In this document: positions 3,160-63,854 of the stretch, in pieces
Layout: every line of letters begins with the position of its first letter
Numbering within the stretch: the first letter of the stretch is position 1
Source of the DNA: Owenia fusiformis
Taxonomy: Eukaryota > Annelida > Polychaeta > Sabellida > Oweniidae
DNA length: 64,000 bases
Direction of reading: 5' to 3'
Assembly (NCBI GenBank): GCA_903813345.2
Contig: CAIIXF020000005.1
Span: 36,707,375 to 36,771,374 of the forward strand
Program-made: the position numbers and the translations under genes
The notes under the pieces: model-generated
Databases searched by the model: none
What the model was told of the DNA's origin: nothing
What the model saw: only the letters and a program-made list of their open reading frames with translations

Positions 3160-3640
3160 GTATATAACATTAATAAGATTTCATTTTCAAGTCCTTAAGG
3201 GTTAGTGGTCTCAATTCTCCCAGTAATTTAAAAATAAGTGAAACAAATGAAGGCCTATACCTATTTTTCAATTTGTTTTAAAAAAAATTATGACTTTATA
3301 TATATTTATATTAGAAACAAGTCAAATTCTTTACTTCAGAGAATATTTTTAATTTATTGAGACTTTCGACTAAAATTTTGAAAAAGACTAAGGGATATTA
3401 GTCGAAAGTCTCAATAAATTAAAAATATTCTCTGAAGTAAAGAATTTGACTTGTTTCTGATATATTAACCAGAGAGATGAACTTACATAGAACTATATTT
3501 ATATTATATTTAAGGCATATATAATATATTTATGATTTCATTATAAAGTCCTTAGGGGTTAATAATCTAAATTCTCCCAGTGATTTAAAAATAAGTGAAG
3601 CGAATGAAGGCCTTAACCCCTAATTTTTTTAATTTTTTTT
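3160..3640. repeat. Direct repeats flanking a perfect hairpin
   Basis: Two ~120-bp direct copies (about 3160-3280 and 3518-3640) share phrases such as AAGTCCTTA, AATTCTCCCAGT and TTTAAAAATAAGTGAA. They bracket a perfect inverted repeat: arms 3313-3373 and 3398-3458 match over 61 bp with a 24-nt loop. Transcription of either strand would give a long duplex stem. No protein is encoded. Confidence 0.85.
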
Positions 3641-12400: not shown

Positions 12401-13975
12401 TACCACAACCTCTTTAAACGGAGCTTAATGGAACGCATCCCAAATCGATGAGAAAGTAACTTACATTAAATTTTCTATTAATTTTTCCCCTAATCTCAAA
12501 TTCGGTTCATTTGCATCGTCACTTTCCACTGGGTCTAGAGAGGTGGGGACAATCTAAACCTTGTGAATCAAGATGGTTCATTTTAGCAAAATCTCACTTT
12601 ATAAAACAAAAATCAAAGCGACAGTGACAAAAAAGACAGTGCCCGTGTTATGATTTTGATTTGGCGTTCAGCTGAAAAAGATGATTCCGAAAGCAAATAT
12701 GTTGATGTAAGAAATGTATGCGTGGCCCCTTCACACATTGGACACTCTTCATGCACGCCGAAATCATGATGAAGAAAGTTATCATAAAATTTGCAGTTGC
12801 TGCACTTTGTGTCACCCTGTATCGTGTATCCGAATCACGTTTACTTATGTATATGACGTTTCCCCTTTGTAGCTTTGTATAAAACACATAACACATGCAT
12901 ATATTCGAGCAGAGGTAGGCGGAAGCACGCGGTATCCTGAAAACTAATTACAAAATAATAAGAAAATATCATTACTATTGGATTCTAAGCATTGCTGACT
13001 TAACACTTAGGGCAGGTAAATGTAAGTAAATTTGTTTATCACAATATGTCAAATTAATATAAAAATAGCCCACTGTATTAAATATAAAACGTGTAAATCA
13101 TTAATTCAATAGTCGTTTATCATTCAAAAATGATCAATTATATTCATGATCATACTTGTACAATGTTCATATTACAATTTTACCAAGAACATTTTTAGTA
13201 CGTATACAATATACATGTAATTAGAATGACCACTACACTTATTTGGCTCATGTTATCCGTTTGTCTTAAGAGTAAAATGTCATCGTTTTAAAGAATTTTG
13301 AATTCATTTTAAATAATGTTCTCGGCAACTATGGCCCTATTATGGACAAAGGGGAGGGGATATCTGATACCAGAATTCATAGGTGAGCCTATCTCCATAT
13401 TCAAATAAACCCTTTACATTAGGAAAGGTTCGTGTATGAATTCTGGGTATTTCCTCGAGTGGCGGTGATTTCGTAACACAAGCTCACACAATTTTGTCAT
13501 CAAGTATCAATCATGGTAATATTGGTCCATTAGTGCAAAATTGAATGAGATTATACTATAAATTATATGAGGGTATGCGATCTTATAGATGTATGAGATG
13601 GATAATAAAAGTATGTCTCTCTTCATGAACATATTTGAACTTTTCATAGCAGAAATGCTACTTCATAGAAAAGCGCTTCCGAAGAATGAGACGAAGAATG
13701 AAGAAGTGGTATCGGCAAAGATCAGAAATCGATTGTTTTAACTAAATACGATGTACATGTCGAACTGAACAAAACAGGTCTTTAATCGAGAGAAACACTG
13801 TTCATAATTTACTGGGATGGTTTTCCCATTTTGCAGGTTTTAATACGGTAGTTTCAGGCGAGGGAATAAAAGTCCACTGTATGATGACTAATTCCAAGCA
13901 TTCAACTGCTGCACCAAAATCCTCTGAAGCATAAACTGTAATTTTGGTTTAATATTTTATTCAGGTCCATCAGAA
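12401..13975. other. Non-coding 5' flank of the GPCR gene
   Basis: No coding gene seen. A pyrimidine tract ending TTTATTCAG at about 13956-13964 lies 11 bases before the GPCR start codon and reads as a 3' splice site. A non-coding 5' exon therefore probably lies upstream, but I could not locate it. Confidence 0.4.
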
Positions 13976-15604
13976 ATGGGGTTACATATAACGATACTTG
14001 CAATATTCCTAGCCGTAGCGATGCATCGAAATCAAGGAATCACTGAAGACGAAATAGTTACTACCAGAGCCAAACGTGAAATGACGACAATGACTGGTCA
14101 ATCAGAAAGTACAGATGAAAGAGATAGCACGCCTGATTATGGAGATGTCACGACTAAATCTACAAGTGCAAGTGCAACAACTGTTCGAGGTGTCACGCAA
14201 GTACTCAATACGAACAGCTCGTCACTTGTGGATATGCAAGATAGAACTCTTACGACTGTAACAGACTTTGGACAAAACACATCTAACTCAAACATAAGTG
14301 GGGGTGATTTTACCACTCAAAGTAGTTCAGCCACGAATGTTTCGAGAACTGATGGAGTTCAATCCAGCACTCGGGTGATGGGAGACGCGTCAAATGTGAC
14401 GTCGACGATACCACCAACGTTCTTTCCATTAGAAGTTAGATTTCGTCAATGTTATGTGAGGAAAAATAGTTACAGCGTTGATGTTAGAGCGTTATGCTGC
14501 ACATATGAGGCTCATGGATATGACATGGACAGCTTAAAATTGAGTGAAAACAATTTGGCATATGTGGTTGTTGAATTTTGGTTTAGTTTGTTCTTATGCC
14601 TTTTTGGATTGGGTGGCAACATTATTTCTTTTATGGTATTGTCAAAAGAAAGAACAAACACAAGCATGTTTTTCCTTAGAGCTCTTGCAGCAAACGATGG
14701 CATATATTGTCTTTGGTATATCTTGTTTACACCTTACATTATAGCCTACGACAAAACCAAATGGATCAATTCGGGTTCCAGAATTTCAGATATTGCCCAT
14801 TGGATCCCATTAAACCAAGGCTATTTAGGTTTGGTCAACTTCATTCTTCAAACGATTTCCATCTGGTTGGTGGTCTTACTTACCATTGATCGTTTCATTG
14901 CCGTGTCGATGCCCTTACAGGCCAGGCTGTTGTGTACAATGAATAAGGCCAGGATTCAAGTTGGTATTTTGATTGTCCTTGTTATTGGTTTTGCCTTGCC
15001 AAAGGCTTTTCAGTTCACTTACTTTTTAATAGATAACGTATGCTTTAAAACACCAGGGACGCGTCTGTTAAAAATTAATTTTACCGACTTTGGAAAAACG
15101 TATGGCATGACTGTTGGATATGATATTATAGCAAGTGGTCTCTTGAGGTATATCATCCCAGTGTTTAGTGTTCTTATCATGAACATCCTTTTGATCAGAA
15201 TATTGGGAAATGCTTCGGCAAATCGTTCGGAATTGGTCAAAGGTGCCCATGACGGACAACAGGGCCGGGGAATCACCGTGATGTTGGTCACAGTTGCGAC
15301 CACATACACCTTATTACTTTTACCACTTGTTGGGATCAAAATTTTGAGGTCACTCTTCTTTTTTCAGCTCAACAAAGAGATATTTATTCACGAAAAACTT
15401 CGACTTTATGTATCCTATGCTAATTTGGCCGGTAACCTCTGCCTGCGTCTAAACTCTTCAATCAATTTTCTCCTTTACATTGTTGTAAGCCGGAAGTTTA
15501 GGAAGGGAATTGTAGCTTTATTTAGATGCGACAGAGTTACTGTAAAAGACACAAGCTTTTCTAATGCAACTCAAGCATCAAGGGCAAGTATTGTGTATAA
15601 ATAA
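13976..15604 (+). CDS. Rhodopsin-type GPCR with mucin-like N-terminus
   Basis: A 542-residue, single-exon seven-helix receptor, probably for a peptide. Residues 1-20 are a signal peptide. RAKR at 31-34 is a furin-type site. Residues 35-150 are Ser/Thr-rich with several N-glycosylation sequons. Helices lie at about 195-222, 229-257, 282-310, 323-348, 386-410, 431-460 and 474-503. Family marks are GN in TM1, LAAND in TM2, DRF for DRY at 305-307, and NSSINFLLY in place of NPxxY in TM7. The TM3 Cys that normally bonds to extracellular loop 2 is absent (Gln at about 281), although loop 2 has Cys356. Three Cys at 159, 174 and 175 precede TM1. The layout resembles invertebrate orphan, FMRFamide-like receptors; the ligand is unknown. 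An intron acceptor just upstream implies a separate 5'UTR exon. Confidence 0.9.
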   Translation: MGLHITILAIFLAVAMHRNQGITEDEIVTTRAKREMTTMTGQSESTDERDSTPDYGDVTTKSTSASATTVRGVTQVLNTNSSSLVDMQDRTLTTVTDFGQNTSNSNISGGDFTTQSSSATNVSRTDGVQSSTRVMGDASNVTSTIPPTFFPLEVRFRQCYVRKNSYSVDVRALCCTYEAHGYDMDSLKLSENNLAYVVVEFWFSLFLCLFGLGGNIISFMVLSKERTNTSMFFLRALAANDGIYCLWYILFTPYIIAYDKTKWINSGSRISDIAHWIPLNQGYLGLVNFILQTISIWLVVLLTIDRFIAVSMPLQARLLCTMNKARIQVGILIVLVIGFALPKAFQFTYFLIDNVCFKTPGTRLLKINFTDFGKTYGMTVGYDIIASGLLRYIIPVFSVLIMNILLIRILGNASANRSELVKGAHDGQQGRGITVMLVTVATTYTLLLLPLVGIKILRSLFFFQLNKEIFIHEKLRLYVSYANLAGNLCLRLNSSINFLLYIVVSRKFRKGIVALFRCDRVTVKDTSFSNATQASRASIVYK

Positions 15605-33500: not shown

Positions 33501-36500
33501 GTATTTATCAGCAGTTATAAAGGTCAAGGTCACTACATGCTATCAGCAATTCTCTCAATAATTTGTTAATATTCAACCGAAGGATTTTTAAAAAAAACCA
33601 GTAAATCAATGATTATCTAAAACTTTCGAGTAGAGAGATAACTTTATTGTAAAACCGTTAAACTACAGGAGCTAATTCAAATCTTTAAGAGTGTGAATTA
33701 ACACATGGTTTGATATAAAAATTAGAAAGAATGAGGAGTGCATCATCATCGCAGGATCTCAGAATGTCAGTCTGTACGTTATGCAATATGACTTTGAGAA
33801 ACCCTCGGATCCTTCCATGTTTACATGTATATTGTGTAGAATGTCTAGACAAACTGGTGGTAGGTGAACAAAGAAATTTAAAATGCCCAGAATGTAAGGA
33901 GGAACATGTGATACCAGAAGGAGGGGTGGAAGGCTTCAAGACTAGTTTCATACATGATGACATTTCCAGTACACTTTTCCAGACATATGATAAAGATGGT
34001 AAACCTACATGTTCTATATGTGTGACGCAAGATAAGAATACTGTAGCGAGAGTTATGTGTTTAAACTGTGGTAAAGTGTTGTGTGTAAAATGTAGGCAGT
34101 CACATGATCGTTTCATAGGTGACCATGCTATACTTAACCTGACTGGGGACAATACCGCAGATGAGAAAACTGCTCAGGAGTATAATATGAATGAACAAAA
34201 AGTGAATTGTCCAATTCACAAAAATAGTGTTTTAAATTGGTTCTGCGAGACTGACAAGACAGTCATATGTTCCGAATGTATCGCAATCAACCACAAAGGC
34301 CATGAATATGTGGACATACATGTGGCGGCAGAAAACAACAAAAAACGCATAGATGGTCTACTCCAAAATGGAGACAAAATGATAAGTGTATTTGACACTG
34401 CTATCAAAGAAGCTGAACAGTACAAAGAAAACATGCAGGCTACTGCCAATAACATAACAGATGTGCTGACAAATGATATGAATGCAGCCATATTTGCTAT
34501 CAGAGAGCGTTACACTGCTGGTATTGTTAAAGTAGTTGCAAGTATAGAAGATTGTACACAGCCAGCTGAAGACCACATTGAGCAGATTCAGCACCAGAAA
34601 GCCAACATTGAAAGGACCATTGACCGACTGCACACCATAATGGACAATGTCAATGATGCAGAGCTGGCAAATATCACAAGCGAAATTGACTCTAAAGCAA
34701 AGCAGTGGAAGAAAAACCAAACTTTTGTCTTTGAAGGTAAAACTCTTCGTATCAATTCAAAACGAGGAGAAATCAAACAAGACTCAATATTATTGGGCAA
34801 GGTCAATGTCAAGGTCAATGGTGACCAATCAAAAACTACATATACCTTTAAAGTTCCAATCATGCTTATAGCTGCATTCTTCATCATCTTTGGTATTGCT
34901 ATTAACCATAGAATACAAGTAGTTGGCAAAATGAGAGAACAAAACAGTGAGAACAATCATGCAACCAACAATTATGAGTTCAGTTCATATCTAGAGTACA
35001 CATATAATTATATCCATATGCCAGAAAAACATGAAAGACAATTTGATGAGCCCCAACATATGAACAGCCAAGGAAAAGCACATGATAGCGTTGACTTAGG
35101 ATATTAAATGTCTTCATATCCATGGTACTTTTGACTATAAATAGGGACCAATTTCATAAGGGATTTATTCACCAGCATCAAAATGTTCAAAAATTTATGA
35201 ATCATAATTTATAATTAACTTACTTTAAATTTCAATGTTGACTGGAATGCAAGGCCCTGTACAGAGGACTTATGTGCTTGTATAGACTGTATAGGTTTAT
35301 TGCCCTGCCTTAAGTCGTATGTATAGATCTTCCCCCGTGTTGAACCAACAGCCATTGTGACACCATCTTGGAGAATATCTATTGAGGTCAGGGGGTTTTC
35401 AGCAGTCATACTCTTTACACAACTGCAAAATATTATATCAGTTTATATAACACAGCTGCAAAATTGTGATGTCAGTTTATATAATACAGCTGTAATATTT
35501 TATGTCAGTTTATGTAATAAAGCTGCAAAATATCATATCAGCTTATACAATGCAACTGGTATATAATATCAGTTAATACAACACAGCAGCAATATATCAT
35601 ATCAGTTGATATAACACAGCTGCAATATTTAATGTCAGTTTATATAACACAGCTGCAATATTTAATGTCAGTTTATATAACACAGCTGCAAAATTTCAAG
35701 TCAGTTTATAATACAGCAGCAATATATCATGTCAGTTTACATAACATAGCTGCAAAATATTATGTCAGTTTAAATAAAAAGCTGCAAAATATTGTCAGCT
35801 TATATAACGCAGCTACAATTTCAATTTAAAAAACACAGCTGCAATATGTCATGTCAGTTCTAAATACAGCTGCAATATACTATGTCAGCATATATAACAC
35901 AGCCTGTATATAATGTCAGTTAATATAACACAGTTGCAATATGATATGTCAGTTCAAAAAACAGCTGCAATATATTATGTCAGCATATATAAAACAGTCT
36001 GTATATAATGTCAGTCTATGAAACACAGTTGCAATATGTTGTCATTTATACAACTCAGGTGCAATATATTGTCAGCATATAAAATAAATACAGCTGTGAT
36101 GTACGGTGTCAGTGGTAACGGTGTCAACGGTAACAGTGGTGGTATATCAGTAAATGGTATAAAACATTGTAACTTGTGTTTGTCAGTTCATACAGTTCAT
36201 AACATGATAAATTATCTAATGATTGGTAGAGACAGGATTCTTATATCAAAGTAACATTTTATATGCCATTTGAAGAAAGTAATCCTATTTTCTTTACTTT
36301 ATTGCTACATTTACTGTTATTGAAAATTGTATGTCGGATGTACGTTTGGCCCTAAAAGGGCATCAGTACTAATAAAATCCTATTATATATGTGTTAACAG
36401 TTGCTGTAATTCTAAAATTCGTCAAACCACACAGTTGTAATCTTATTTTGTTGCAATTGCAATATAGAAGAGAATATTTAGAGAATATTATATAAATATT

Positions 36501-45854: not shown

Positions 45855-48845
45855 ACCGTGTAGGCACGCGGTAGTATCTCTTCGGGACGTATCGAAACCA
45901 CTCCGTCCCGAAAAACCGTTAATTTGAATTTAAAACCTACCCCAGTGTTTGAAAATCAAGGATTGTGAGTCTCACACTTCACCGTTTTTCTTCAAACTTG
46001 TTCCGTACAAAGCTTCACAGAAATACCTTTCAGTCGATACATTGTTTTCGTGTACAAAGTACCTCGTTTTAGCGGCGTTTTGGTCCCCAGCTGCGAGATA
46101 AAGCACATTTTCATAACTTTCAACTGTAAGTCAAGTTATCTCGCCAGTCTTTTACCCATTCTCGCTCATAATTTCAGAATGGACTCCCATTACAACCTTC
46201 CATCGCTACGTTTTGATTTTTGGGCATCAAACGCAGCAGTTTCTAAATCATTCACACATCTCTTAAAATTTGACTAATACGTCCCGTCACCTTCCACTAC
46301 GCCCCGCCGAGTCTATGACTACAAACGTGGAGTTGTATTCTAAAACATTTTGTTCATCGTTGTGTAATTTTACATAGGTTTGCCTTGGTCGATTCTTAAC
46401 ACCAGTCTTAAGTTTAGCATACATACGGAGTATAACTATAACTGATTGCATGAAATTGATAATTTAAATGTTTGTGAAGATGTTGCTTTTTAACTTTTTA
46501 ATTATATGTAATTGTCCTGTATTTGATTTTGTGAGGAAACCAAGTGTCTGCTTTGAAACACAATAAAATCTGGAATCTTGTTTTGCTAATGTTCAACATA
46601 AATAATTTATAAATTATCGGCCGAGGGCAGATTAGAGCGGATCAATTCTCCTTTTCGCGGTTCGCTCTTTGAATCAGAACGTTCGCAAATATGCACTGAA
46701 AAAGCACTCAAAAAGCACAAAATTTGATTGGTCAATATTTTCCCACTATGCATTTCGCGTAGCTATTTGCGTGACACGAAAGTTCTAAATCAAACTAATT
46801 ACTCAATTTTGTTTTTACACCCGCACGCTAAATAAAACAATGACACCATCGTAAGTATTCTTCTTTGTCATTGCTTTAATAGTCAGTATACCGAGTTTAA
46901 TCAATAAAAGATTGTACAATGAACAACAAAATTCGGAAACGAGTACTATAGATTTGCTTTGCTGACCACTGAACAGATTGACCTATATAATAGCGACGCG
47001 TCTTCTTTGGTCTACTGCTCAGTTGTTTGTGGGTTTTCAACGTAACTCTATAATGTAATTTGAAGATGAATACTTTTATTCAGTTGTTGCATCGATGTCG
47101 CAGTTTGTAGTGCGGTAAGATTGGCATGAAAGTATTGAAAGTCGAATGGAATTGTTTTTTCCAATATGGCGACTAGTCTACTGATCACGTGACCTTCTCT
47201 TCCGGAATATTTTCTCACTTTTCAATCATCGTTTTCACCACGCTATGAATTAATACAATGAAAAAAATAGCTGTTATATTAAGATTAATGAGAGATCAAT
47301 CGTTTCTAATAATTTTTTCAGTACTCTCGTATGGGAATATGAACGAATATATCGTTTGAAAAATAGGTGTGAAAATCCCCATGTTAAACCTATGAGGGAA
47401 AATAAGGAAGTATAAATTTGTTCCTCCGCGAACTGCATCATGGGAAATATTTTGCCCTTATAAGGAAAGATTTTCGCGTCTTCTCTTTTGAAGAGGGAAC
47501 AACGATTTCGAGAATTAATGATGTACAAAAAGTAACATGTAAAAGAAAAAACGCTATACTATTGTCATGACTATTGCTCTCGACAGAAAGCTTCAATTTT
47601 CATTGCATCATATTTATTTATTTACCTGTATTTAAACAGAGTGGTTTTAAACATATGCAGTTACTACTTAAATGATAATTACACTATTTGCTTAATTCTA
47701 TGAAGAATGTTTTTATAGTTTTTAATATTCTATCGTCCAGCGTATTCTCTCCGAATTATTGATCTGGCTATGAATTTTATGCACTAAACATAAACATGTA
47801 ATACGTATCAGAATGATACTATACAATATTATATCACAAAGAACATTTTGTCATGACTATACATATTTTCTAAGTTCATCATCATGCCACAGTGTAAATG
47901 CATCATCATACAACACTAATTGGTATATAAACAACATCTACTGACTTGGTCTGATAATGTAATATAAAGATTTTAACTGTTGTGTGTCAACCTTTCTTCT
48001 GTATGATTCCATTGGATTACATTATGAAACGTGTACCATATAAAATGATACATGTTTCTAACGTTATGCTGAAAATAATATAATTGACATCACCCATCCT
48101 TTCGCATTTTAACATTTTTTCAAGGATAGGGCACTTTAAACGTTTCTTAAAAATATTTTCAATTGTTCAGTAATTAAAATCTTTATATTGCAATATCGGG
48201 AAATCTAAATTTTAGGGAGATTTTGGACCACTCTATTATAGGTATATTGAAAATGGACAAGAATGGGTAAATCTTAAAACACAATCCGATTGGTATTTAG
48301 AATCGACAATGGCAACCTACAAACGGACACATCGATGGACAAATTGTTTTAGAATGCAACTCTACGTGTATAGTGATAGACTCGGCGGGGCGTAGTGGAA
48401 GATGACGGGACGTATTGGTCAAATTTGAAGAGATGTGTGGATGATTTAGAAACTGCTGCGTTTGATGCCCAAAAATCAAGACGTAGCGATGGAAGGTTGT
48501 AATGGGAGTCCATTCTGAAATTATGGGCGAGAATGGGTAAAAGACTGGCGAGATAACTTGACTTACAGTTGAAAGTTATGAAAATTTGCTTTATCTCACA
48601 GCTGGGGACCAAAACGTCGCTAAAACGAGGTACTTTGTACACGAAAACAATGTATCGACTGAAAGGTATTTCTGTGAAGCTTTGTACGGAACAAGTTTGA
48701 AGAAAAACGGTGAAGTGTGAGACTCACAATCCTTGATTTTCAAACACTGGGGTAGGTTTTAAATTCATATTAACGGTTTTTTCGGGACGGAGTGGTTTCG
48801 ATACGTCCCGAAGAGATACTACCGCGTGGTAGGGATGGTGACATA
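45855..48845. mobile_element. 3-kb foldback element with ~550-bp arms
   Basis: Arm 45855-46405 is repeated in inverse at 48293-48845 at high identity, separated by about 1.9 kb of unique sequence. Both outer edges lie next to GTCACC / GGTGAC. In each arm a related frame (MYKVPRFS...VLVPSCEIK) is open outward-in: it stops early in the left arm (TAA) where the right arm has CAA and reads on. The spacer has no transposase-like frame. It does contain a CACGTG site and an ATATGGCGAC motif near 47165-47195. It could be a foldback transposon or a locally inverted duplication. Confidence 0.65.
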
Positions 48846-54500: not shown

Positions 54501-56433
54501 TATTATTTTTCACATTTTGCTTGTCATACGATTTTATACTAGAGAATATCGTAGAAAAAGTGGATATTTGATAAATATCCGCAAAAGATTAATTTATAAT
54601 TTAGAGCGCTTAATTTTTGTTTTGGAAAGGGAATGAACCATGCATAGCCTGGGTACATATTATTCTTCTGGATTAAACCCAATCCGACTGTAACTACGTG
54701 TAATGATTTAAAGTTTCATCGTGCCAGTTAGATGTTTATGGAATCCTATCTGGAAATTCTCACTAACTCCACAGAGATAGAGATAATTTGTATATAGAAT
54801 GGCCTACATATTTGCACCTGTCTACCGGTTATACTGTGCAGTAATCATCATTCATACTCTTCTTAACACTTACCCAGAGTGACTTAGCTTGCAAAATAGG
54901 GCACTGCTTACTTGTTGCATAGGTGCTACTGTTTATATCTTTATGTTGTTATGTTGTGAATCATACATTGGACGCCTTTAATTGAACTTTAATTTCTGTA
55001 CGGAAAATAAAGAACGAATTACACACAAAACCACATTGTTTGATTAATTTTTTTGAGAAGCATCATCGGTCAGGTTTTGAGATAAAATATGACTTCTTCA
55101 TTATCTTTGGTATCGTGTTACGCAGATTGATTTTATTGATTTGAATTCTCAATTTAACTTTTAATTTTATCTTATACCTCCAGGAGAGATAATTGGCGAA
55201 CAGATACAGCCAACAACGGAAGGTGATCGTGATATGGGCGCATGTGCCAGTATGAATAAATCCGATTCTCCAAATGTGTCCCCAGCAGGAAGTCAGAATC
55301 CATTATCAGGTGCCCCCACTGAGAAGCCAACAGAGAAGGCTGGCCCACCCCCAGAGGTGAGCGCTGAGGGAGTACCGAGTGAACCACCCCCGCCCTACAC
55401 TGTTACAGATGAGACACAGGCACAAACAGCTGCTGATGTAGAACCTTCACCAGCTGTGGAGGATATTCCGCCACCCGTTGAAACAACAGAAGAGGCAGTC
55501 GCTGTTGAAACTACAGAATCGAAACCAGCTGCTGAAGCAACAGAAGCACCAGTCAATGTTGAAACAACAGAAACACCAGTACCTACTGAAACAACAGAAG
55601 AACCAGCAGTACCCGCTGAAACAACTGAAGCCACAGAAACGCCAGCACCGACAGAAACAATAGAAGAACCAGTCACCACTGAAGCAACAGAGGCCACAGA
55701 AACGCCAGCACCGACAGAAACAATAGAAGAACCAGAAACGCCAGCACAGACAGAAGAGGAACCAATAGCCGCTGACACTACAGAAGCCACAGAAACTCAA
55801 CCTCCCGTCGAATCAGAAGAGGTACCGGTTACTGCTGAAACAACTGAATCGACAGAGGCCCCACCAGTGACTGAAACATCAGACGAACCTGTAGTTGTAG
55901 ATGCGACAGAATCACCAACAGCAGTTCAACCAACCGAAGTACCTGACGCAGCTGATCCAACGGACACTACAGAAACATCAGAACCTGCTGAAGTATCGGA
56001 AACACAGCAAGCCATTGCTGAATCTTCAGAATCGACAGAAACTCCACCTCAAGTTGCAACACCTGAGGCCCCAGTTGCTGATAAAATTACAGACACTCCA
56101 ACACAATCTGAAACCGCAGAAGAATCCGCCGCTAGTGAAACAGTAAGTGACACTCCCGTAAAAAGTGAAACTGATACAACCGCAGAAACAACTGATGCAA
56201 CAGATGCACCTGGTCCAGTTGTAGACGCTGTACCAGAGGATGACGGAGAATACAAGGAAATGCCACTACAGCAAACGGTAGTGATCAAAACGTACACGCT
56301 AGCATTGAAACTCCAGAGAGATATCGCCAAGATGCAATTGGAGTTATCAAGCTTACAGAGTAACCTTCGGCATGCCAATGATGACTTGCAAGAACTACTG
56401 GACTTTACACTGAAACAGATGAATACTGAATAA
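51580..56433 (+). CDS. Acidic Thr/Glu/Pro-repeat protein with C-terminal coiled coil
   Basis: Unrecognised. The large exon (55184-56433) carries ~270 residues of degenerate ETTEAP/TETPAPTETIEEP-type repeats, including a 63-bp perfect-frame duplication (55630 and 55693). It also has a PPPPY WW-domain-binding motif before the repeats and ends in a ~60-residue amphipathic coiled coil (KLQRDIAKMQLELSSLQSNL). Two starts are possible. ATG 55234 gives MGACAS, a classic N-myristoylation plus palmitoylation type start (399 residues). Alternatively, exons 51580-51606 (MDTVPIISI, donor ATA|GTAAGT) and 53989-54022 join in phase to 55184 and give 436 residues, making MGACAS internal. Without a signal peptide a cytoplasmic, membrane-tethered scaffold is a reasonable guess. 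Tandem with the acidic gene at 58.2 kb. Confidence 0.75.
52383..52461. repeat. Three-copy 24-bp tandem repeat
   Basis: ATGATTTATAAAGAAAGTTT recurs three times in near-perfect tandem. It lies inside the putative first intron of the acidic repeat gene. Confidence 0.8.
52462..53988. other. Intron 1 sequence, nothing recognised
   Basis: No conserved coding or repeat structure was seen up to the small exon at 53989. Confidence 0.3.
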
Positions 56434-61164: not shown

Positions 61165-63854
61165 TCATAGTGAAAACATAGTTTGAGCTTCATCCATTAA
61201 GTCCATCATATCTGACGAAGACACAGTGTAACTATAAGGATTCACTAAGACAGGGAAGTAATAAAGTGGTTTGAGATCACTAGATAATTCCCAAATTATC
61301 TGAAAATCAAAATGTTTCTGGTTTAATTGTACAGCATATCATAGACGTAATCAAAATGGAATTGACTAGTTAATTATTACTTGGAAAATTTTACAGAGAA
61401 ATAACAATTCAGACTGAAAATAAAGTCTGATGATAAAATAATTTTGCTTTTAACTTAATTTTTGGCTCTATTTGCTTCGCCTATTTTTAGGTCCTGGCTA
61501 TGTTAACAAATAACTTATAAAGTCACCGCAGTTTTGTATTATTCCTATGAATACACTTTGTACATTGTAAATAAAGATTCAATGACATTCTTCACAGAAA
61601 TTCAAAATCTATAATAACATACCTCAATATAGGGAAACCCTGGTTTCTTCCCTCCAAGCTTTGCGAAATAGGATGCGGAGTGCAGTTGTGCCTTGTAGGC
61701 GCCATACCTTACAGCATCCCCTTCTAGCATCATTCCCGCTTTTCCCATTGTATCGGTAATGCTAGAATGAATTCATTATCTTGAGTTAGATTTCAATGCT
61801 TAACAAAACTATCAACTGGTGGTATTGCTAGTGATGATTATAAGCTAATCCTTAGAATTTTTGGGGAAAAAATCGAGAATCAAAAACCTATCAAGAAAAA
61901 AGAGATTACAGTACTTCTTTAATCCCGGTTACAATGGAGTTTATTTTAGAAAATAGATTTAACAAAAATGATATACGAGCTGAAAATATCTACAAACTCC
62001 GATGCTACCTTACATGAATATACACACCATTGGCTCATTTTAAATTTTGATATTTACCTAGTATGAATATGAGTCCAACCACTCATCTGATGGTTATAGT
62101 AAATTGACATGGTCATATTATGAGCTGGTCTACCGATTGACGTATCTGTCACCATTGCCAATATTGTAATATTTTGACAGATTGTGTCTTGTGCATTGGT
62201 AAAAACTGGTTCGCCCGCTGGTACGTCGTCAAAAGCGGGCGTATTTACAATAGCTGTTGGTGTTATTGTTGAAGTTGTGGGCTCGTCTAAAATCATATCA
62301 TTCAATTCAAACATCAAATTATCTCACTTCTAGTATTTAATTATTGATCACCCATTCCAAAAGTGTTGCAAAATAGCTTCATCTACAGTACTCCATGATA
62401 TACTATGTACTTGACTTATTGAACTAATTCACACTTAATACACTTACCATCAAGTCTTTCGTAATAGTCTATGAAGGGATGGTACTGCGGAGCAAAAGGT
62501 GTGTTAGGATCATTGTGATTTGAGCTCGATAGCATGCACTCGCTTGTCTCTTGCACATAGTCCACCGACTTGCAATAGAATTTAGCATATTGGACGCACG
62601 CTTGGAGGCATCCCAAACGTGCCATGTTAGTCAATTTGACGTCGTTGTTTCCTGGTAGATATGATTTAGGGAAAGGTATCCAGAATCCACCACCACTTTG
62701 AATATATGGCCTTGAAGTTCTGCGTTCTTCTAAAACATCAATTAGCTGAATAAATCTAAGGTAAAGTTTGAATTAATATTTTGCGTGAATTTAACTGAAA
62801 TGATATAAGTTAGCAAATAATCAAAACAAAAATAAGCACGATAGTAAAATGAAAATGCCAAACTGATTTAAAAATGGAAATACATCGAAATGAAATACAC
62901 AGAAAATCTTACTTCTATAAGACGTGTATCCTTCTCCAAACACAAGCATCAAATCATCAATTGCAACATCACCTTTCCAACTCTTCCCGCGTGTCACCTC
63001 AAATATGATGTCAAAATCCCTTCTGGCAACCTGAACAGGAATATCAATTTCAGCATATCTCCAATCTGAGTTTTCTTGTGGACCTGAAATGGAGATCAAG
63101 AGAAATCTTCGAAAATGTTAAAAATATGAAGACCAAAAATTATCTGAACACCATCTCATTTCGGTATGTGTTCTCTGTCATTTGTATCATCTGAATGTAA
63201 GGTCCCAGGCCACCTACACAACACGGTGTAAACAAGGATAAATGAGCTCATGAATGAGGTATTGATTCATGAGTTGATATAATGTTTTACCTAATACGTG
63301 AAACCTCGAAACAACTTGGTGATCAGAGCTGTTGGTCATTACATCAAGTTTTCCAACGTCTTGTCCGAAAGCGTGGTAGAAAAACATCAGTTTGCCATCC
63401 TCTGTAGTGTTATTATGTCCCTTCACATTAAGTACTGCTTGTGTTTGGTCGTTAAACTCTACTGGAGGGGAGACATCCGTGTATAAGTAGTAACCTGTGA
63501 AATGAAAAATTACAGTTTAAGTTAACGAGGGAATCCCATGTCAAAATCACTGTTTAGCTTATTTCCAAAAATGTCGCATGGGATAAGTACAACAAATCGT
63601 AAAATCAGTTTAGAAAAACAAATGAATAGGTCAAAGTTATAAATACCATTACAATTACTGTTTTTTGGAACTTTTCTGAACTTCTGAGAACTTAATTATG
63701 ACTTGACATATGTTTGACTTACCGTTTCCAGAGGTATGGTCCCAACTAGGTCCTGTACCTCTTGTTTGCGTCTCCCCCTTGTTTCTTTTCCACTTGAACC
63801 CATGACTGCTTAAGTTGAGACCACAGCTGCTAACCTCAAAGTCGCAACTAAATG
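61165..63854 (-). CDS. MAM + PAN/Apple + transthyretin-like extracellular protein (5' end cut)
   Basis: Seven exons join in phase: 63723-63854, 63291-63494, 62913-63083, 62448-62729, 62058-62286, 61623-61761, 61165-61299. The first three form a MAM domain (FSCDFEVSSCG, GTGPSWDHT, LMFFYHAFGQDVG, AIDDLMLVFG); the third and fourth MAM cysteines are absent. The fourth exon is a PAN/Apple domain (four Cys, GCLQAC...YCKSVDY...SEC). After a Thr/Pro linker, the last three exons encode a transthyretin/HIUase fold: MVTDTSIGRPAHNMTM, SYFAKLGGKKPGFPYIE, YYFPVLVNPYSYT. The hydrolase residues appear lost (N-terminal His to Met, Arg to Lys, second His to Tyr, no terminal YRGS). The upstream acceptor TTACTTACAG is in phase 1 like most introns here, so the gene probably continues beyond the window. 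Alternatively ATG 63918 reads straight in and could give a short signal peptide. Confidence 0.88.

Follow-up and report, generated by a model that had tools for sequence, protein, structure and literature searches.

The standard textbook example of an enzyme fold turned into a secreted non-enzyme is vertebrate transthyretin (TTR). Secreted proteins that are transthyretin-like by name also occur in nematodes (the TTR-52 type), where they form a different Pfam family, PF01060. Extracellular modular proteins with MAM, PAN and VWA domains are built from phase-1 exon-shuffled parts and carry mucin-like stretches, and none of them is known to end in a transthyretin domain. In the account given in PMC4324301, vertebrate TTR arose from 5-hydroxyisourate hydrolase (HIUase) through changes in the active site. 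PMC8272043 describes this site as two His, one Arg and a C-terminal YRGS motif, and both sources present HIUase and TTR as tetramers, with the active site of HIUase located between subunits (PMC4324301, PMC8272043). A multidomain setting is described for the Arabidopsis TTL protein, in which the HIUase domain is fused to OHCU decarboxylase; there, however, HIUase is joined to another enzyme of its own pathway, and the isoform in question is peroxisomal, not secreted (PMC4324301). In the tabulated part of PMC6742230, TTR and PAN proteins occupy separate rows.

The window analyzed here is a 64 kb stretch of contig C5 of the annelid Owenia fusiformis (C5:36707375-36771374), and the genome searched comprised 498 Mb in 525 contigs. 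PMC9539403 gives this species 12 chromosomes. A search for COX1 in the genome found none, whereas Eryth_link_C (PF16915), a family of annelid haemoglobin linkers, matches at three places above its cut-off, in keeping with an annelid. None of 14 control genomes has a match, a comparison of little weight because those of them known by name are prokaryotes. On the minus strand, from 63854 to 61165, seven exons with AG/GT borders join into one open frame of 429 aa. A preliminary description had proposed seven phase-matched exons encoding MAM, PAN and a TTR-like domain, and all seven are present:

63723-63854, minus strand: MAM exon 1, phase 1 at both ends, Pfam MAM
63291-63494, minus strand: MAM exon 2, joined in frame, Pfam MAM
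62913-63083, minus strand: MAM exon 3, joined in frame, Pfam MAM
62448-62729, minus strand: PAN_1 domain exon, symmetrical phase 1-1, Pfam
62058-62286, minus strand: TTR-like exon 1, Thr-rich linker and first strands, phase 2 at its end
61623-61761, minus strand: TTR-like exon 2, phase 2 to phase 0, with introns common to the organism's own HIUase
61165-61299, minus strand: TTR-like exon 3, C-terminal tail, stop codon at the exon end (61165)

In the product of this gene, termed gene A, Pfam recognizes MAM (E 9.8e-24, 84.4 bits, cut-off 26.4), PAN_1 (E 5.8e-8, 32.9 bits, cut-off 21.4) and, at the C-terminus, Transthyretin (PF00576; E 4e-14, 53.6 bits, cut-off 25.3). The single extra match in the 429 residues, to PITM1-3 (0.017), is weak and falls below the cut-off. 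A profile check of the last ~150 residues had been proposed, and the last 167 aa alone score 55.7 bits with PF00576, well over its cut-off. When the same residues were searched against the PDB, the top chains were a HIUase-TTR ancestor (7kcn, E 5.6e-11) and a TTR ancestor, followed by HIUases and TTRs. With the Pfam scores above their cut-offs and these PDB matches, the view that a transthyretin-family domain terminates a secreted-type modular protein with MAM and PAN domains has held up. The combination is real, and chance is excluded because of the profile scores, a tandem paralogue that shares all 13 exons other than the Thr/Pro-rich one, and a dN/dS of 0.22 in the TTR core. The preliminary description knew of no earlier account of this architecture, and no paper describing MAM-PAN-TTR was found in the open-licence literature either; it may stand unnamed in domain-architecture databases. 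What the gene model predicts is a known superfamily member in a new setting. We consider it roughly 60% probable that the gene whose 3' half lies in the window encodes a large, mucin-like modular protein of secreted type that ends in a degenerate HIUase/TTR domain, and that this domain was captured, has spread, is non-hydrolytic and serves in assembly or binding.

Gene A extends past the right edge of the window, with its first exon 7.0 kb farther on at C5:36778417, and has 14 exons in total. The encoded protein has the order signal-peptide-like segment, X, Thr/Pro-rich stretch, X, Ig-like, MAM, PAN, TTR. The first exon is hydrophobic and signal-peptide-like in gene A and in its paralogue, gene B, as judged by eye. 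Module X consists of two exons encoding ~160 residues without a Pfam match and is present twice in gene A, the Thr/Pro-rich exon measures 786 bases, and the next domain is called Ig-like only because it scores 12.1 bits with Ig_2 at a cut-off of 27. Read by eye, the joints between modules are in phase 1 throughout, and the inner introns cut MAM twice (phase 1), X once (phase 0) and TTR in phases 2 and 0. Symmetrical phase-1 parts are a known mark of shuffled extracellular modules. Module X recurs elsewhere in the genome, with strong matches at C2:19083102-19089842 and C1:55197749-55206233, the latter (E 4e-16) inside an open frame 2987 codons long, and weaker ones at C2:30668926-30691170, down to E 0.14, one of them in a frame of 3597 codons. 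In gene A, a minisatellite with a unit of ~80 bases fills much of the intron that separates the Ig-like exon from MAM exon 1 (L001, ~320-2250, starting from the right edge of the window).

The tandem paralogue, gene B (C5:36790618-36805088), repeats 13 of the 14 exons of gene A in the same phases, namely those for the signal-peptide-like segment, both X modules, the Ig-like part, MAM, PAN and TTR; the Thr/Pro-rich exon is the one that has diverged between the two genes. In addition, gene B contains two VWA-like frames between Thr/Pro-rich stretches, and the one that was scanned is a VWA domain (6.8e-43). Between A and B, dN/dS is 0.22 for the TTR core (128 codons) and 0.24 for the TTR exons, compared with 0.42 for MAM, 0.26 for PAN, 0.25 for the Ig-like exon, and 0.27 and 0.32 for the X modules. 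Judged by these ratios, the TTR exons are constrained like the rest of the gene.

Further copies were found at other loci. A genome-wide profile search with PF00576 returned the canonical HIUase only; each derived copy is spread across three exons, which taken singly presumably score too low. A genome search with the domain of gene A itself (E <= 1) recovered only the tandem pair. The other sets were reached through a MAM-PAN query, small profiles and tblastn on the loci, and a query with set E. Altogether ten sets of TTR-like domains (A-J) were found at four loci, nine of them distinct and J identical to I, so that by prediction up to ten large secreted-type proteins carry this TTR-like tail. 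Two types can be told apart: A-D belong to genes with a MAM-PAN-TTR architecture, and the six sets E-J lie in a cluster with PAN, EGF and VWC parts. Gene C (C8:4.804-4.807 Mb, ~4.81) is of the MAM-PAN-TTR type, with 30.5 bits for its TTR domain in PF00576 (cut-off 25.3); no convincing Ig or X match was found in the ~12 kb upstream. Gene D (C5:32.417-32.429 Mb) comprises X, Ig, MAM, PAN, a Thr/Pro stretch and TTR exons 1 and 2. Its Ig domain is Ig-like only (Ig_2, 23.1 bits, cut-off 27), and its TTR domain, assembled from two of three exons, reaches 24.0 bits, just below the PF00576 cut-off of 25.3; a search of 9.4 kb downstream by profile and motif detected no third TTR exon.

The cluster at C5:41.391-41.474 Mb, which was reached from PAN matches, contains sets E, F, G, H, I and J. 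Set E is preceded by two PAN exons and by EGF and VWC parts, and those of them that were scanned all exceed their Pfam cut-offs. The TTR domain of set E reaches 35.9 bits (cut-off 25.3). According to tblastn, all six sets have PAN in their neighborhood (a partial match in the case of J), EGF is found close to every set except G, and VWC close to E, G and H. The Pfam scan of the TTR domain covered A, C, D and E, and B and F-J were matched by tblastn or our own profile. The four scanned domains matched PF00576 and not the family of the secreted nematode TTR-52 type proteins. The stretches with I and J are identical at 3601 of 3601 bases compared, with a spacing of 5093 bases (C5:41400500-41409693; L097, L101), and J could reflect a very recent duplication or an artefact of the assembly. 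In set G, TTR exon 1 occurs seven times in tandem, with the final copy truncated (C5:41437926-41438729; L103, L104).

The joining of PAN to TTR in gene A is predicted from the DNA sequence, and this leaves room for a reading in which a MAM-PAN gene is followed by a separate small TTR-like gene. Such an arrangement is highly improbable. A separate TTR protein could not start in TTR-like exon 1 of gene A, because the first Met of this exon lies inside the domain, and in A, B, C and D the PAN exon is followed by the TTR exons on the same strand, in the same order and in matching phase 1, at three loci. Across the genome, 16 PAN-type matches were obtained (E <= 1e-6; 146 of 169 candidates scored), four in genes A-D and 12 in the C5 cluster. 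All of them thus lie in TTR-bearing loci, which favors a single PAN-TTR core.

Ancestry shared with HIUase is recorded in the gene structure as well as in the profiles. The one canonical HIUase gene found lies on C7 (126 bits) and has two introns, one just before VTNSDGR (phase 2) and one after FYPYVE (phase 0). The derived sets were compared by eye and have introns at the same places, intron I in phase 2 in 10/10 sets and intron II in phase 0 in 9/9, the latter count covering the sets with a third exon, which D lacks. Both places presumably agree with those of vertebrate TTR. Profile-profile comparison with hhalign matched the MAM-PAN type to HIUase/TTR at 98.7% and the cluster type at 97.6%, and the two types to each other at 73.5%. 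The predicted TTR-like domain belongs to the HIUase/transthyretin superfamily, and it resembles HIUase in that the profile match extends across nearly the whole domain. It differs in that the derived sets lack the first His, the Arg and the YRGS motif, and in forming the tail of a large secreted-type protein, whereas HIUase is a free enzyme. At the HIUase locus itself (L009:2075-3300), several decayed tandem copies of the first coding exon were noted by eye upstream of the intact one.

These losses were quantified in a residue alignment of the nine distinct derived sets and 14 HIUase controls (12 bacterial, the zebrafish and the own enzyme). Both His, the Arg and the Tyr are kept in all 14 controls. 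Of the nine derived sets, none keeps the first catalytic His and none the Arg, and YRGS is absent from all eight readable sets (D is without the last columns). The second catalytic His persists in 5/8 (E-I), and the Tyr of YRGS in 2/8 (B and C). Gene A also stays 32 bits short of the HIUase equivalog model TIGR02962 (55.8 bits, cut-off 87.45). In the mutagenesis data given in PMC4324301, the exchanges H6A, H95A and Y108F each stopped rapid hydrolysis by the Salmonella enzyme. Owing to the residue losses, the TIGR02962 shortfall and the behavior of these mutants, hydrolysis of 5-hydroxyisourate by the derived domains is very unlikely. The second His in E-I and the Tyr in B and C would be expected remnants if the domain were still active as a secreted HIUase, or as another hydrolase, tethered to the matrix. 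Yet we regard such an activity as very improbable, given the loss of the first His and the Arg in 9/9 sets and of YRGS in 8/8, the score of gene A below the equivalog cut-off, the effect of the Salmonella exchanges (PMC4324301, same data), and the existence of a canonical HIUase elsewhere in the genome.

Loss of catalysis might also herald decay, with a functionless domain riding along with useful MAM and PAN parts. The long branches of the derived domains in phylogenetic trees, the failure to find a third exon in D, and the repeated and partly truncated exon 1 in G would fit this scenario. Against it stand the intact open frames and splice sites and the low dN/dS values, 0.22 for A/B and 0.11-0.19 for the six pairs among E-H, although the E-H values may be lowered in part by gene conversion, as exon 3 differs at only 1-4 of 87 bases in DNA. 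Decay is therefore quite improbable in our view. The complete identity of exon 3 among E-H (0/29 residues differ) was considered as a sign of a conserved dimer interface, but this candidate was dropped because the DNA is almost equally identical and gene conversion explains the pattern as well.

Most likely the domain would serve outside the cell as a stable sandwich used in assembly or binding, with no enzymatic activity. By analogy, the tetrameric state of HIUase and TTR points to an assembly module or a partner-binding site as the most likely role. According to the preferred model, exons of an intron-bearing HIUase-type gene would have been captured into a gene for secreted modular proteins, and this gene would have spread via duplication and exchange of phase-1 modules. 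The PAN exon, as read from the sequence, would be spliced to the TTR exons in one message, and the TTR-like domain would no longer hydrolyze 5-hydroxyisourate. Somewhat less certain than capture, spread and inactivity is the further step that the domain, placed at the C-terminus, serves in assembly by pairing or cross-linking the proteins of a matrix or of mucus. Alternatively, and with similar caution, the groove of the old active site might have become a site for another partner.

A different use of the same fold would be the carriage of small ligands: the domains would pair across a channel and hold a small aromatic molecule on a matrix protein, much as TTR holds thyroid hormone. Membership in the TTR family and the replacement of the catalytic His and Arg, as in TTR, are consistent with this idea. 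The column compared in this context, presumably that of TTR Lys15, contains M, T, T and E, and N in E-I, which speaks against it, and at the former active-site positions the residues are not the same in the two types, nor within A-D. Because these former active-site columns vary from copy to copy, assembly or partner binding is rated above a carrier function, which appears unlikely, even though the descent of vertebrate TTR itself from HIUase by active-site changes (as recounted in PMC4324301) provides a precedent.

The origin of the derived domains relative to vertebrate TTR was addressed with trees of 18 and later 25 rows, which included 12 bacterial rows hand-picked for variety from 80 loci kept of 113 bacterial relatives and excluded the PDB ancestor sequences. 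The branches of the derived domains reach up to 6.5 changes per site, and the tree program issued a long-branch warning. In the best tree of 25 rows, A-D come next to vertebrate TTR (support 56/82), whereas E-I stand elsewhere. All nine derived sets group together in 36% of the 200 bootstrap trees (AU p 0.345 for such a clade). In these long-branch trees, grouping with vertebrate TTR yields AU p values of 0.37 (A, B) and 0.421 (A-I), and grouping with the own HIUase 0.189 (A, B) and 0.242 (A-I). There may have been one capture or two, as the two types match at only 73.5% and the best tree, which is unsupported, splits A-D from E-I. The suggestion that an invertebrate separately converted this fold was thus borne out in one part only: the C-terminal TTR domain, the secreted-type protein and the change of the first His and the Arg in 9/9 sets agree with a conversion, whereas the trees, which do not place the domain, neither support nor reject a common descent with vertebrate TTR after HIUase (AU p 0.37 and 0.421). 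We would give somewhat less than even odds to the full scenario, in which a protostome lineage, without any link to vertebrate TTR, became the second to convert the HIUase fold into a non-catalytic module outside the cell, and in which this module joined a PAN-containing core, and was spread by exon shuffling and duplication into two secreted matrix or mucus families as an oligomerization or binding part.

Vertebrate TTR is likewise a non-enzymatic descendant of this fold outside the cell, but it consists of one domain, whereas the domains described here are fused to MAM, PAN, Ig-like, VWA, EGF or VWC parts. A second and expanded invertebrate case, if true, would allow an independent comparison of which residues have to be lost, which core has to be kept and whether it is the tetramer that is reused. 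Since an ordinary HIUase with the same introns has been kept beside the derived copies, an ancestor-like enzyme and its putative descendants can be compared in one genome. Transthyretin-family matches in invertebrates may be matrix parts rather than purine enzymes.

The remainder of the window contains several other features. A single open frame on the plus strand (13928-15604) encodes a seven-transmembrane GPCR domain (Srw, 2.3e-15) preceded by a Thr/Ser-rich N-terminus. One open frame at 33719-35107 (plus strand) combines RING and B-box domains (TRIM-like), with a hydrophobic stretch near the C-terminus seen by eye, and a repetitive frame of 422 aa, rich in Thr, Glu and Pro and without a Pfam match, lies at 55165-56433 (plus strand). 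The open frames at 45969-46277 (plus strand) and 48349-48723 (minus strand) are nearly identical and oppositely oriented, and thus indicate an inverted repeat whose copies are ~2 kb apart.
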